DNA of 57,415 nucleotides from Alphaproteobacteria bacterium (GTDB taxonomy: Bacteria > Pseudomonadota > Alphaproteobacteria > UBA9219). The stretch spans positions 1-57,415 of the forward strand of contig JAGWIK010000014.1 in assembly GCA_028866275.1 (NCBI GenBank). The letters are read 5' to 3'. Every line of letters starts with the position of its first letter. Position 1 is the first letter of the stretch. A model generated the notes under the pieces. It was given only the letters and a program-made list of their open reading frames with translations, was not told where the DNA came from and searched no databases. The position numbers and the translations under genes are program-made. Positions 40,690-46,141 of the stretch are shown in pieces.

Positions 40690-42036
40690 TCATGCCGCCC
40701 GCCCCGCCAGCAACGAACGCACGCGTTGTTCGCCGATGCGCGGCAACAGATATTTCATTTCCGGCCCGTGATCATGCGCGGTTAACGCCAACCGCAACGG
40801 CATGAACAAATCACGGCCTTTGCGTCCGGTCTGCGCCTTGATCGTCTCGGTCCATGCGTGCCACGTATCGTCGTTCCACAGGCCCGGGGGCAGCATGTCC
40901 GCCGCCTGCGTCAAAAACGCGGGGTCCTGCACCACCGGCGTTACCGGCCCCGTCGCCACCCGCCACCATTGGCGAATATCGGACAGCACGGCGATATTGG
41001 CGCGCGCCACGGTCCAGAAATTTTCATCGACATCGCCCAACCCCATCGCCGCCAGCCGGTCGCGCACGGCATCGAACGGCGTAATATGCAGAATCTTGGC
41101 GTTCAGCGTCTTTAATTCATCCAGATCGAATTTCGGCGTCGCGTGGGAAATCTTGCCGACATCAAAACCCGCCGCCAGTTCATCCAGACTTAAACACGGC
41201 CCGATCGCATCCGACGTCCCCAGCCGCGCCAGAAGCGCATTGACGGCCATCGCTTCGATTTCCATGTCGTCGCGCATGCTGGCAATCGACAGCGTGCCCA
41301 GACGCTTGCTCATTTCAATGCCGTTGGCGCTGACGATCAGGGGAAAATGCGCGAACGCGGGGTGCGGCGCGTCCGTGACCGCCTGCCATATCTGAATCTG
41401 CACGGCGGTATTGGTGACATGGTCTTCGCCGCGAATGATATGCGTCGTGCCGTCATCGACATCGTCGACCACGGAACAAAAAGTATAAAGCGGCACGCCG
41501 TCTTCGCGCACCAGAACCGGGTCGGACAGCGACGAGGCCGGAAAGCTTTTCCGCCCCTGCACCATATCGTCCCACACCACATCGGTGTGGTTCAGTTTAA
41601 ACCGCCAATGCGGTTTGCGCCCTTGCGATTCCAAATTCCTGCGTTCTTCGTCGCTGAGTTTCAACGCGGCGCGATCATAGACCGGCGGCAGACCGCGGCC
41701 CAGCTGGGTCTTGCGCTTCAGATCCAGCTCGGCCTGCGTTTCATAGCACGCATAGGCGCGGCCCGATTGTTTCAAGGACTCCAGCGCGGCCGCATAACGC
41801 GGCAACCGGTCGGACTGGCGGCCGAAAGTGCTCCATGTCAGACCCAGCCATGTCAGATCGCGCTTGATGGCATCGGCAAATTCCTGCGTCGACCGCACGC
41901 TGTCGGTGTCGTCAAGACGCAGCATAAAGCCGCCGCCATTTCTGCGGGCGAATAAAAAGTTAAAAAGGGCCGACCGGATATTGCCGATATGCAAAAGCCC
42001 GGTGGGCGAGGGCGCGAAGCGAACATGAACAGTCAT
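40690..42036 (-). CDS. gltX: Glutamyl-tRNA synthetase
   Basis: A 448-residue class I synthetase. The HIGH-like motif is in SPTGLLHIGNIRSALFNFLF, and the KMSKS-like motif in NGIEMSKRLGTL. The catalytic core has CYETQAELDLKRKTQLGRG and HIIRGEDHVTNTAVQIQIW. The C-terminal helical anticodon-binding half is divergent. Alphaproteobacteria often carry two GltX paralogues, one charging tRNA-Gln; which this is cannot be told. The promoter region is shared with the three-gene cluster. Confidence 0.95.
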   Translation of the reverse strand: MTVHVRFAPSPTGLLHIGNIRSALFNFLFARRNGGGFMLRLDDTDSVRSTQEFADAIKRDLTWLGLTWSTFGRQSDRLPRYAAALESLKQSGRAYACYETQAELDLKRKTQLGRGLPPVYDRAALKLSDEERRNLESQGRKPHWRFKLNHTDVVWDDMVQGRKSFPASSLSDPVLVREDGVPLYTFCSVVDDVDDGTTHIIRGEDHVTNTAVQIQIWQAVTDAPHPAFAHFPLIVSANGIEMSKRLGTLSIASMRDDMEIEAMAVNALLARLGTSDAIGPCLSLDELAAGFDVGKISHATPKFDLDELKTLNAKILHITPFDAVRDRLAAMGLGDVDENFWTVARANIAVLSDIRQWWRVATGPVTPVVQDPAFLTQAADMLPPGLWNDDTWHAWTETIKAQTGRKGRDLFMPLRLALTAHDHGPEMKYLLPRIGEQRVRSLLAGRAA

Positions 42037-42275: not shown

Positions 42276-42779
42276 ATGAGTAATATTATTTGCGTTCATA
42301 CGGGTTATGGCACTCTTTACAAACGCGCTGCCGCCCTGTTGCCGGACCTGCATTACAGCGGGTCCCGGTCCATCACCGACACAAGGCCGGAATGCGCCCT
42401 TGATACCTATCACGCGCACCGCGGGTGCGATCTTGTTGTCTTTGTCGTGCAATCATCTCTTTTGTTTCCATCCGATATAACAGCGCTGCAGGACGGGCAA
42501 CTGAGCGGACAATTAAGCCGCCTGACCGGCAATTTGTCGGTGCCCGTTCTAGTGCTGCATGACGGCACGGAAATAAGTCGGCAATATTCGGAAAATCTTT
42601 TTGAAAAACGCGGCCTGTACCTTCTCGGATGCCTTCCCGTCGACGAGATCGACCTCGAGATAGCCGCTTCCATCCGCGATACGACAAGACAATGGGCGGA
42701 AACGCGCGCACGCGAACCGGCACCGGTCGTGAACTTTGCCGCCTATCGGCAACAACGCGCCCTGACTTTTGCGCGATAA
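42276..42779 (+). CDS. Unknown protein, first of a three-gene paralogue cluster
   Basis: A 167-residue soluble protein starting MSNIICVHTGYGTLYKRAAA. The order is a first strand, a central hydrophobic strand (GCDLVVFVVQSS), a further strand (LSVPVLVLHDGTE), a strand plus Pro (RGLYLLGCLPVDEID), a helix with Trp (LEIAASIRDTTRQWAETRAR), and a tail APVVNFAAYRQQRA. This looks like a Rossmann-like alpha/beta fold. The tail and the D-x(2-5)-A helix recur in the next two genes. No catalytic motif is recognised. The ATG at 42276 is chosen; a TTG at 42231 is possible. Confidence 0.7.
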   Translation: MSNIICVHTGYGTLYKRAAALLPDLHYSGSRSITDTRPECALDTYHAHRGCDLVVFVVQSSLLFPSDITALQDGQLSGQLSRLTGNLSVPVLVLHDGTEISRQYSENLFEKRGLYLLGCLPVDEIDLEIAASIRDTTRQWAETRAREPAPVVNFAAYRQQRALTFAR

Positions 42780-42817
42780 CATGATGAAGAAATATAAAAT
42801 ATAAAAGGAATTTAAAT

Positions 42818-43417
42818 ATGCCGCCATTTTTCTTGGGTATTTACCACGACAATGATCGATTGTCTTTTGAACGCGCGGTGCGTGTCATGTCGCTTATCAA
42901 CGCGACATTTTCCAAAAATCTGGGGGGCGATCGTTTCATGCCTCAATGTATTGCCGTGGATAGAACGGCACGGCTGTATGATACGACCAAGCATATACCT
43001 CATTTCGACGCCGTCCTGATGGCATCCCAATGTTTGTGGGATGCCCATATTCCCTCCTTCATCCCTCCGCAATATCAACGGCTGATTCCCGCTTTGATCG
43101 TCAGCTACAGCGCCGCGGAAAACGTTGAAAACGAAAGAGACGCGATCGAACAAACAATGCCCCGCAGCATCGTCCTCACCCCCCAGACTTCGGTGATGGA
43201 TATCGCCCGTTACTGCGCCGTTATTCAGGAATGGCGGGAAGACTGGGACACGCTGCGCCAGCAAATGCCGCCATTGCCCACGACAATGCCGAGCGCTATC
43301 AGAAATTACCGCATGCGTCGCACGCCTGATACGACTCCCGCGCCGGTAATCGACATCCGTGTCTTACGCGAGCGCAGAGCGGCTCAACATAGAACCGATG
43401 GGCTCAACAACGGCTAG
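42818..43417 (+). CDS. Unknown protein, second of the paralogue cluster
   Basis: A 199-residue soluble protein starting MPPFFLGIYHDNDRLSFERA. It follows the same layout as its neighbours: first strand, HFDAVLMASQCLWDAHIP, LIPALIVSYSAAEN, SIVLTPQTSVMDIARYCAVI, a Trp-rich helix end (QEWREDWDTLRQQM), then a Pro-rich linker and a tail APVIDIRVLRERRAAQ. The tail closely resembles that of the first protein. No family is recognised. An AAAAGGAA site precedes the ATG; the gap to the first gene is 38 bases. Confidence 0.7.
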   Translation: MPPFFLGIYHDNDRLSFERAVRVMSLINATFSKNLGGDRFMPQCIAVDRTARLYDTTKHIPHFDAVLMASQCLWDAHIPSFIPPQYQRLIPALIVSYSAAENVENERDAIEQTMPRSIVLTPQTSVMDIARYCAVIQEWREDWDTLRQQMPPLPTTMPSAIRNYRMRRTPDTTPAPVIDIRVLRERRAAQHRTDGLNNG

Positions 43418-43428
43418 AAGAAAACGCC

Positions 43429-43965
43429 ATGAAAACCCTCGTTGTTTACGACCACAGTGACAATGTCAAAGCGCAGATGGCCTTCGCGGAAAGGAAGGTG
43501 GTCGGGTTCGTCAAAATTCTTGGCGAAAATCGTATAGCCGGACTGGCGCTTTCCGCCGCCCCTGATGCCAGACGGTATATCGAATCCACCCTGCCATTGT
43601 TCGACTGTCTGATCGCCGCCGCGCCGGATGCCGCCGAAAAAGGTTATTTCATCGGGTTTCGCACTCTGGGTTGTGGCATTCCCATCATCGCCATGCCGAC
43701 GCCGGGGCAATGTGCCGCGCTACGCAGCCAGTTCGCCGGCGCAATCAGAAATCGCCTGTTCACCGGCTTTCCCGAATATGTCGCAACAGACGTTCTCGAC
43801 GTAGCCCGCGAATGGTCGCTGGAACGTCAGGAAATGTTCCGGCGCCACATATCGACGGGCAAGCTCGCGATTCTGGCGTCAGATTACGCCCCCGGACGCC
43901 ATATGCCCGCCCGTCCCGACGATACGCGCGGCGAGGTTCTGCCTTTTACGCCGCAGCCTCGTTAA
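43429..43965 (+). CDS. Unknown protein, third of the paralogue cluster
   Basis: A 178-residue soluble protein starting MKTLVVYDHSDNVKAQMAFA. The shared layout is FDCLIAAAPDAAEKGYFIGF, CGIPIIAMPTPGQCAALRSQ, LFTGFPEYVATDVLDVAREW and an Arg-rich helix. A shorter tail (RGEVLPFTPQPR) keeps the hydrophobic pattern but not the RxxRA of the first two. No family is recognised. It starts 11 bases after the second gene and ends 70 bases before uvrB. Confidence 0.7.
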   Translation: MKTLVVYDHSDNVKAQMAFAERKVVGFVKILGENRIAGLALSAAPDARRYIESTLPLFDCLIAAAPDAAEKGYFIGFRTLGCGIPIIAMPTPGQCAALRSQFAGAIRNRLFTGFPEYVATDVLDVAREWSLERQEMFRRHISTGKLAILASDYAPGRHMPARPDDTRGEVLPFTPQPR

Positions 43966-44035: not shown

Positions 44036-46141
44036 ATGACTTTCCCCATTTTCGCCGATGTTGCGCACCCTGTTTTTCGCCCCGAAGCCGGCAAGAAATT
44101 CGACCTTGTGTCCGATTACCGCCCCGCGGGCGATCAGCCGCAAGCCATCGCCGAGCTGACGCAACGGCTGGCGGCGGGCGACCGCGATCAGGTTTTGCTG
44201 GGCGTCACGGGGTCGGGCAAAACATTTACCGTCGCCCATACCATCCAAACGTTGCAACGCCCTACCCTTATCCTTGCGCCCAACAAAACGCTGGCGGCGC
44301 AGTTATACGGCGAAATGAAATCGTTCTTTCCCAACAACGCCGTCGAATATTTCGTCAGCTATTACGATTATTACCAGCCCGAAGCCTATGTCGCGCGCAC
44401 CGACACCTATATCGAAAAAGAATCGATGATCAACGAACAGATCGACCGCATGCGCCACGCCGCGACGCGGTCGTTACTGGAACGCGACGATGTCATCATC
44501 GTGGCGTCGGTGTCGTGCATTTACGGCATCGGGTCGGTCGAAACCTACCAGACCATGACTTTGGGATTGGCCAAAGGGCAGGAAATAGGCCGCCAGACCT
44601 TGTTGTCGTCATTGGTCGAATTGCAATATAAACGCAACGATATCGGTTTCGGCCGCGGCGATTTCCGCGTCAAAGGCGACACCGTCGAAATTTTCCCCGC
44701 GCATTTGGAAAGCACGGCGTGGCGCATCATCATGTTCGGCGACGATATCGAACGCATCGTCGAAATCGACCCGTTGACCGGCGAAAAAGGCGACGAATTC
44801 GACGCCGTCAAATTATACGCCAACAGCCATTATGTGACGCCGAAACCGACGCTGGCGCAGGCGGCGGAACAGATCAAAATCGACCTGAAGGCGCAATGCG
44901 CCGCGTTTCTGGCCGAAGGCAAATTGCTGGAAGAACAGCGGCTGCGCGAACGCACCACCTTCGACCTTGAAATGATGGCGGCGACGGGGTCGTGCGCGGG
45001 CATCGAAAATTATTCGCGTTACCTGACAGGGCGCGCGCCCGGCGAACCGCCGCCGACCCTGTTCGAATATCTGCCGCCGAATGCGATGCTGTTCGTCGAC
45101 GAAAGCCACGTTATGGTGCCGCAATTGAACGGCATGGCGCGCGGCGACGCGGCGCGCAAGACGACGCTATCGCAATATGGTTTCCGCCTGCCGTCCTGCG
45201 CCGACAATCGCCCGTTGAAATTCGAGGAATGGGACAAAATGCGCCCGCAATCGGTGTTCGTGTCGGCGACGCCGGGCGATTGGGAACTGAATCAAACCGG
45301 CGGCGTTTTCACCGAACAGGTCGTGCGCCCCACGGGGTTGATCGACCCGCCCGTTATCATCCGCCCCACCGAAAAACAGGTCGACGATCTGCTGGACGAA
45401 GTGCGGCAGGTGGTGGCCAAAGGCATGCGCGTCCTTGTCACGACATTGACCAAGAAAATGGCCGAAGCCCTGACCGAATATATGGGCGATGCCGGAATCA
45501 AGGTGCGGTACATCCATTCCGACGTCGACACGCTGGAACGCATCGAAATCATCCGCGATTTGCGTCTGGGCGTTTACGACGTGCTGATCGGCATTAATCT
45601 GTTGCGCGAAGGGCTGGACATCCCCGAATGCGGGCTTGTCGCCATTCTCGACGCCGACAAGGAAGGATATCTGCGGTCGCGCACATCTCTTATTCAAACG
45701 ATAGGCCGCGCCGCGCGCAATGCCGAAGGCCGCGCCATTTTGTACGCCGACCGTATGACGGGCAGCATGAAAGCCGCCATCGAGGAAACCGACCGCCGCC
45801 GCGAAAAACAACAGATTTATAACGCCGCGCACGGCATCACGCCGGAAACGGTCAAAAAATCCATCGGCGATATTTTGTCGTCCGTGTATGAACGCGATCA
45901 TCTGACCGTCAAGGCAGGGCTGGCCGACGACGTCACCCTGTCCGGCAAGAACCTGCAAACGCATATCCGCGATCTGGAAAAACGCATGAAACAGGCGGCG
46001 TCCGATCTGGAATTCGAGGAAGCCGCGCGCCTGCGCGACGAAATCAAGCGTCTGGAAAATACCGAACTGGGCATCGAAGGCCCGGCAGGCCCCGTGTCGG
46101 GATTGCAAAAAACAAAATCACGCGGCAAGAAACGTCGGTGA
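44036..46141 (+). CDS. uvrB: Excinuclease ABC subunit B
   Basis: A 701-residue UvrB of nucleotide-excision repair. The Walker A motif GVTGSGKT is at about 56-63. The damage-probing beta-hairpin is in [20 protein letters not shown]. Helicase motifs include [12 protein letters not shown] and the C-terminal RecA-like lobe ([13 protein letters not shown]). The C-terminal UVR domain ([20 protein letters not shown]) binds UvrC. The start [20 protein letters not shown] is accepted. It precedes galE by 35 bases. Confidence 0.98.

Follow-up and report, generated by a model that had tools for sequence, protein, structure and literature searches.

The question raised by this locus is what three adjacent small genes of no familiar kind are doing between gltX and uvrB of an alphaproteobacterium, and how they came to lie there. 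The window, that is, the whole stretch of DNA that was analysed, comprises 57,415 nucleotides and is one entire contig of a 2.19 Mb draft genome. The original prediction saw in the three products diverged copies of one fold, two of them with nearly the same tail, and proposed a multisubunit complex or a small system whose tail docks to a partner. The open reading frames named there, with their coordinates and lengths, the quoted peptide segments and the gltX and uvrB flanks are all present in the sequence (Table 1). The trio is oriented toward uvrB and away from gltX; the spacers between the coding regions are 38 bp (genes 1 and 2) and 11 bp (genes 2 and 3), and 70 bp separate the stop of gene 3 from uvrB.

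Table 1 The trio and its borders in the window, and the gap genes of other genomes
Feature	Positions	Strand	Remarks
gltX (glutamyl-tRNA synthetase)	40690..42036	-	left border of the gap; name from the earlier prediction and the sequence
Gene 1 (P0001)	42276..42779	+	167 aa; orphan, alpha/beta-type; possible longer start, TTG at 42231
Gene 1 C-terminal tail, APVVNFAAYRQQRA	42720..42761	+	used in the tail-pair test; pattern V-V-N-F-x-x-Y-R at 42726
Gene 2 (P0002)	42818..43417	+	199 aa; orphan; strands 1 to 3 align collinearly with gene 3
Gene 2 C-terminal tail, APVIDIRVLRERRAAQ	43340..43387	+	used in the tail-pair test and in the whole-genome pattern search
Gene 3 (P0003)	43429..43965	+	178 aa; orphan; without the tail common to genes 1 and 2
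uvrB	44036..46141	+	right border of the gap; same direction as the trio
Filled gltX-uvrB gaps in relatives			G017: P0006, P0007; G019: P0008; G004: P0009, P0010; G028: P0011; G027: P0012
Receiver loci in tsf-pyrH gaps of relatives			G014: L102; G019: L106; G021: L097

All three frames are intact, and each has its lowest G+C content at codon position 2 (0.46, 0.45 and 0.48). The codon usage of the trio is atypical compared with the longer genes of the genome. Per-codon coding scores are −0.001, 0.05 and 0.131 for genes 1, 2 and 3, to be read against the genome's genes of more than 200 aa, for which the 1% quantile is 0.011, the 5% quantile 0.094 and the median 0.31. Since the score of gene 1 falls below the 1% quantile, this gene was omitted by the simple gene caller used in the analysis. 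An antisense frame inside gene 3 scores 0.134, versus 0.131 for gene 3 itself. Promoter-like sites (4 versus 2.6 in shuffled sequence) and terminator-like sites (5 versus 3.1) are near the shuffled number, and the search for repeats at the locus was uninformative.

Searches of Pfam, NCBIfam, PHROGs, PADLOC and PDB sequences returned nothing above noise for the trio, in line with the original statement that no family is recognisable; the best noise-level matches were to BldD-like_C in Pfam (E 0.15, P0002), in PHROGs (E 0.2, P0003) and in the PDB (E 1.3, P0003). A known anti-phage defence system was considered and rejected, with no PADLOC model at E ≤ 1 for any of the three genes. Relatives were equally elusive: P0001 had none in 32 other genomes of the order, including nine from its own genus, and P0003 found only itself in 33 genomes of the order, apart from one spurious weak match with an internal stop. 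P0002 had none in 385 genomes of the class, its own counted, a sample that leaves out some genomes of the order as it was drawn from the class; six weak matches were judged to be chance. On reading, the seven weak matches (six of P0002, one of P0003) were frames with stops, low-complexity, very short or antisense, and one of them (L024) is a 797-codon frame of a different nature. Another of the seven, L026, was discarded as chance because it runs antisense to a receiver. Contig scans with a single protein, which detect close relatives only, gave none in viral contigs (P0001, P0002), genome contigs (P0003, P0010), plasmids (P0001) or phages (P0003).

The near-identical tails of products 1 and 2, a feature of the original prediction, turned out to be beyond chance. 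The best ungapped 15-mer match between them scores 41 (BLOSUM62), and a score of at least 41 is reached by 6 of 85,491 tail pairs, this pair included. The test comprised 414 tails of 45 residues, from the trio and from 411 predicted proteins drawn from the window plus 400 kb of the same genome. The tail of product 3 is different, again as predicted, and scores 9 and 20 against the other two (71,895 and 8,697 of the 85,491 pairs as good). A search of the whole-genome DNA for the tail pattern gave 29 matches, versus 23 for the reversed pattern as control. Of the 29, 8 fall no more than 25 residues from the point where an open frame ends. Two of these are products 1 and 2; the remaining six belong to frames of 281, 189, 45, 23, 11 and 10 codons, which look antisense or too short by eye. 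By this judgement, the pattern stands near the C terminus of a credible gene in products 1 and 2 only. A 48-codon frame on the minus strand of another contig of the genome (L138:1383-1529; G000:C45), which is close to a response regulator gene, starts with MNVVDMAAYREA and resembles the tail motif of gene 1, but at its N terminus.

Comparison of the bodies gave a less uniform result. Products 2 and 3 are collinear over about 65 residues, LGIYHDNDR...FDAVLMAS of the former pairing with LVVYDHSDN...FDCLIAAA of the latter. Against a background of 95 other proteins of similar length from the same genome, which form 4,465 pairs, their similarity is equalled by 1.7% of the pairs in local alignment with BLOSUM62 and by 2.5% with BLOSUM45, whether local or global, and the local values are unchanged after removal of the tails. 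Shuffled sequences did as well in 8 of 300 cases in local alignment, in 3 of 300 with global BLOSUM45 and in 68 of 300 with global BLOSUM62. The corresponding share of background pairs is 3.0–10.9% with tails and 13.6–45% without tails for products 1 and 2, and 16.7–24% for products 1 and 3; pairwise BLASTP among the trio gave nothing useful (best E 0.078, for products 2 and 3). The proposed common body is thus probably correct for products 2 and 3, and the body of product 1 has no significant link to either. Judged by this similarity, genes 2 and 3 are probably homologous and probably arose by duplication. That all three are diverged copies of one fold is plausible, since genes 2 and 3 are probably homologous, products 1 and 2 have a tail in common and the order of elements looks alike by eye. 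Single-sequence AlphaFold, run with no alignment, yielded poor models of products 1 and 3 (pLDDT 40.1 and 36.4), and Foldseek with these poor models gave no match at E ≤ 0.001.

Inspection of the same gap in relatives revealed that its contents change from genome to genome. Among 32 genomes of the order, all have a match to gltX and 26 to uvrB, and in 15 of the 26 the two genes are divergent neighbours separated by at most 2.0 kb. Because the gap is shorter than 400 bp in 8 of these 15, the ancestral gap was probably near empty. It is 0.6–2 kb long and filled in 7 of the 15, among them the genome of the window with its three genes; in the relatives, the most credible frames were picked by eye (Table 1). 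All gap genes run toward uvrB except that of G014, which we take to be glutamate 5-kinase-like. In a Pfam scan of seven gap proteins, P0008 is a receiver (PF00072, E 3e-7; 31.0 bits, just over the cut-off of 30.2), and P0006, P0007, P0009, P0010 and P0012 are without family. P0007 is an orphan as well, found in 1 of 32 genomes, its own. P0006 occupies the place of gene 1 and has a similar strand-4 segment (LPILVLYEG versus VPVLVLHDG); its similarity to gene 1 is equalled by 1.4% (BLOSUM62), 6.2% (BLOSUM45) and 24% (global) of background pairs. The gltX-uvrB gap is therefore a variable site in related genomes. The set of three was seen in no other genome searched and the contents of the gap differ by species, which speaks against the conserved triplet, or multisubunit complex, of the original prediction; an always-together set was dropped in view of the searches with P0001, P0002 and P0003 and of the gap contents of relatives.

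Two of the filled gaps deserve mention in their own right. P0011 of G028, a 309-codon frame (L008:383-1312), matches Tad4, a Type I Thoeris inhibitor (PF25186, E 4e-7; 30.7 bits versus a cut-off of 25), and this in a chromosomal housekeeping gap. P0009 and P0010 of G004 (L009:200-1549) are arranged in tandem, are homologous to each other (phmmer 7e-6) and give a faint receiver signal.

A second housekeeping gap, between tsf and pyrH, also contains receivers. In the genome of the window (G000:C28:21616-22778; locus L077:1616-2778), two tandem small genes lie there in antisense; the first is a receiver (E 5.8e-5, just below the Pfam cut-off) and the second has no family. Of the other genomes, 29 had a tsf match; the stretch downstream of tsf was taken from 20 of them, and pyrH was found in 15 of these 20. 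Stand-alone receiver-type genes were found in the gap of 4 of 16 genomes (that of the window, G014, G019 and G021); frames in these four gaps were picked by eye and then scored, and the remaining 12 were inspected by eye alone. The copies from G000, G014 and G019 are interrelated (E 3e-14 to 1e-7). The G021 protein is of double length, with mutually homologous halves (E 1e-8 to 3e-8). A receiver profile barely recognises the second G000 copy (0.4 bits) and the N-terminal half of the G021 protein (−1.2 bits); the C-terminal half does slightly better (6.3 bits). Small receivers and decaying copies thus occupy a housekeeping gap in this genus, and receivers standing beside barely recognised copies provide the decay series that a model of receiver decay needs. 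Other contents of the tsf-pyrH gap include, in G002 (L112, a reverse-complemented stretch), two tandem minus-strand frames of 146 and 135 codons whose N-terminal halves are alike by eye and have no receiver look, and, in G023 (L103), a 247-codon frame that is pentapeptide-repeat-like, a name taken from its repeat pattern.

Do the trio proteins belong to such a series? By eye, each body shows, in receiver order, a strand 1, a D-x-[VL]-[VLI] strand, a strand with Pro at its start, and a final strand that leads into a long helix. In receivers, the corresponding middle strand reads D-L-V-L-L-D. The strand-3 ends of the trio are DLVVFV, DAVLMA and DCLIAA, with V, A and A at the phospho-Asp position, as read by eye on the translations and not from a reliable alignment. 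Read in the same way, the trio has no acidic pair after strand 1 and no Lys before the Pro of the last strand; gene 2 has a Ser after strand 4 (PALIVSYS).

The profile searches did not single out the trio. None of the three matched PF00072 at E ≤ 10 in the Pfam scan, and they were absent at E ≤ 10 from the scan of their own genome. With a receiver profile derived from 28 receivers of the window's genome, the best domains scored −3.1, −1.4 and −3.3 bits, and 70, 10 and 68 of 200 shuffled sequences scored as high. Of 184 small proteins examined, 139 gave a score, and among these the trio ranked 94, 36 and 103. Of the proteins from the gaps of relatives, P0010, P0007 and P0009 were equalled by 1, 3 and 4 of 200 shuffles, and P0006 gave no score; the values of P0007 (2.0 bits) and P0010 (3.9 bits) are faint and close to those of P0012 (2.6 bits) and of an unrelated protein (2.3 bits). 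Masking the catalytic columns of the profile brought no gain for the trio, and profiles made from gap receivers scored it no better. The minor pseudo-receiver families listed in a recent perspective (PMC12632262) were not matched by the trio in the Pfam scan at E ≤ 10 either. As no profile test is in favour and the structural test failed, we do not file the trio as receivers. Judged from the gap context, receiver ancestry is nevertheless likely and the best single guess.

For the tail, a concrete comparison is offered by SspB. In alphaproteobacteria, the tail of SspB docks on the N-domain of ClpX. SspB was found in 18 of 19 genomes searched, that of the window counted, and is encoded on contig C14 in the genome of the window (PF04386), where it ends in GEIISLDKFRKK. 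In all 18 genomes the C terminus reads [VI]I[SR]LDxFRKK plus 0–8 residues and follows a variable linker, and a conserved end after a variable linker has the look of a docking peptide. The tails VVNFAAYR of gene 1 and VIDIRVLR of gene 2 place their hydrophobic residues and Arg at the same intervals, so that the likeness consists in a C-terminal peptide [VI][VI]x[LFI]xx[FYL]R that follows a region of variable sequence. The differences are equally clear: SspB stops at FRKK plus 0–8 residues, whereas the two tails extend 9 and 15 residues past the motif; they are without the S-L-D core; and no body of the SspB type (PF04386) was matched in the trio in the Pfam scan. When the 414 tails were scanned (BLOSUM62) with the SspB 12-mer, P0001 was 24th and P0002 27th, and with the 8-mer they were 12th and 28th, a weak likeness given 0.04–0.10 chance matches expected per tail; the tail of gene 3 ranked 133rd and 354th. 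The rarity of a looser regular expression for the tail is circular, because the expression was written after these tails had been seen. Since the tail resembles the conserved SspB C terminus of these genomes, ClpX is a concrete candidate partner; that the tails of genes 1 and 2 really dock there is, on this resemblance, rather unlikely. The peptide of Escherichia coli SspB competes for the zinc-binding domain of ClpX (PMC7226468).

It is tempting to speculate that the trio encodes fast-diverging, small stand-alone proteins with degenerate receiver-like bodies that bind partners, and that the tail common to products 1 and 2 is directed to ClpX. We prefer this explanation tentatively and regard it as quite possible rather than probable. 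At least genes 2 and 3 would have originated by duplication. The bodies would be degenerate receiver-like (beta-alpha)5 domains from which the phosphotransfer residues have disappeared; instead of being phosphorylated at Asp, they would act by binding other proteins, as some characterised bacterial pseudo-receivers do through protein contacts (PMC12632262). The peptide V[VI]x[FI]xx[YL]R near the C terminus of products 1 and 2 would have the ClpX N-domain as its most likely partner, which would make these products candidate ClpXP adaptors or adaptor-like substrates.

The strongest competitor does away with receivers altogether: the three genes could be unrelated or partly related lineage-specific orphans in a variable insertion site, some of which may have been imported from mobile elements. 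We doubt this, and still count it as a real possibility. The lack of any profile or sequence link between the trio and receivers is what would be expected, the codon usage is atypical, and the gaps of relatives hold different genes, the Tad4 match P0011 included. Against three unrelated insertions stand, however, the tail that product 1 has in common with product 2 and the collinear alignment of product 2 with product 3; a receiver is also present at this site in one relative, and others lie in the tsf-pyrH gap. As for an import, neither of the two proteins tried had a relative where it was sought, P0001 in plasmids and P0003 in phages.

Three subunits of one complex that dock to a common partner by their tail, as first envisaged, would account for the tandem arrangement on one strand, the short spacers and the tail common to two of the products. 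This is quite improbable: the set was found in no other genome searched, the filled gaps of relatives carry one or two genes with other sequences, and gene 3 is without the tail. Highly improbable is a locus of genes in decay, in which gene 1 is possibly no gene at all. The atypical codon usage and the weak coding scores, that of gene 1 above all, point in this direction, and purifying selection is not measurable because no homolog was found. Against it stand the three intact frames, the G+C minimum at codon position 2 in all of them and the retention of the same tail in genes 1 and 2. Altogether, the trio represents orphan genes, probably partly paralogous, in a variable housekeeping gap. It is less of a conserved system than originally hoped and its setting is more interesting; on present evidence it is an orphan gene set in an interesting context and not a demonstrated system.

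The activation and inactivation of bacterial pseudo-receivers have been called a mystery in a 2025 perspective (PMC12632262). A lineage that repeatedly places receivers and degenerate copies in the same gaps would offer a natural series from phospho-switch to binding protein, and docking of the tail on ClpX, if true, would illustrate the origin of new protease adaptors. One may go further and suppose that the housekeeping gaps of this order harbour a fast-changing stock of stand-alone proteins derived from receivers, some of which shed the phosphotransfer chemistry, gained an SspB-like C-terminal peptide and became species-specific ClpXP adaptors. Regulated proteolysis would then be rewired from species to species. 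This extension is most probably wrong.

How does the preferred reading, degenerate receiver-like binding proteins with a ClpX-directed tail on two of them, compare with known systems? The trio resembles receivers and pseudo-receivers in the order and spacing of strands and helices, as seen by eye, and by the receiver in the same gap of one relative; it differs from receivers in having no profile match and in the positions of the catalytic Asp, Thr/Ser and Lys, which are not conserved by eye. CpdR is a receiver-type protein, and CpdR and RssB share with the proposal made here the combination of such a protein with ClpX. CpdR has been listed among the ClpXP adaptors (PMC8119881), and RssB, an atypical response regulator, docks on the zinc-binding domain of ClpX; it does so by an internal site and not by its C terminus (PMC7226468), unlike the docking proposed for the tails of genes 1 and 2. 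A further comparison is offered by Osp of Rhodobacter sphaeroides, a single-domain response regulator that inhibits CckA (PMC9430884). The likeness lies in the mode: a stand-alone receiver-type protein that acts by direct binding, as the products of the trio are proposed to do.
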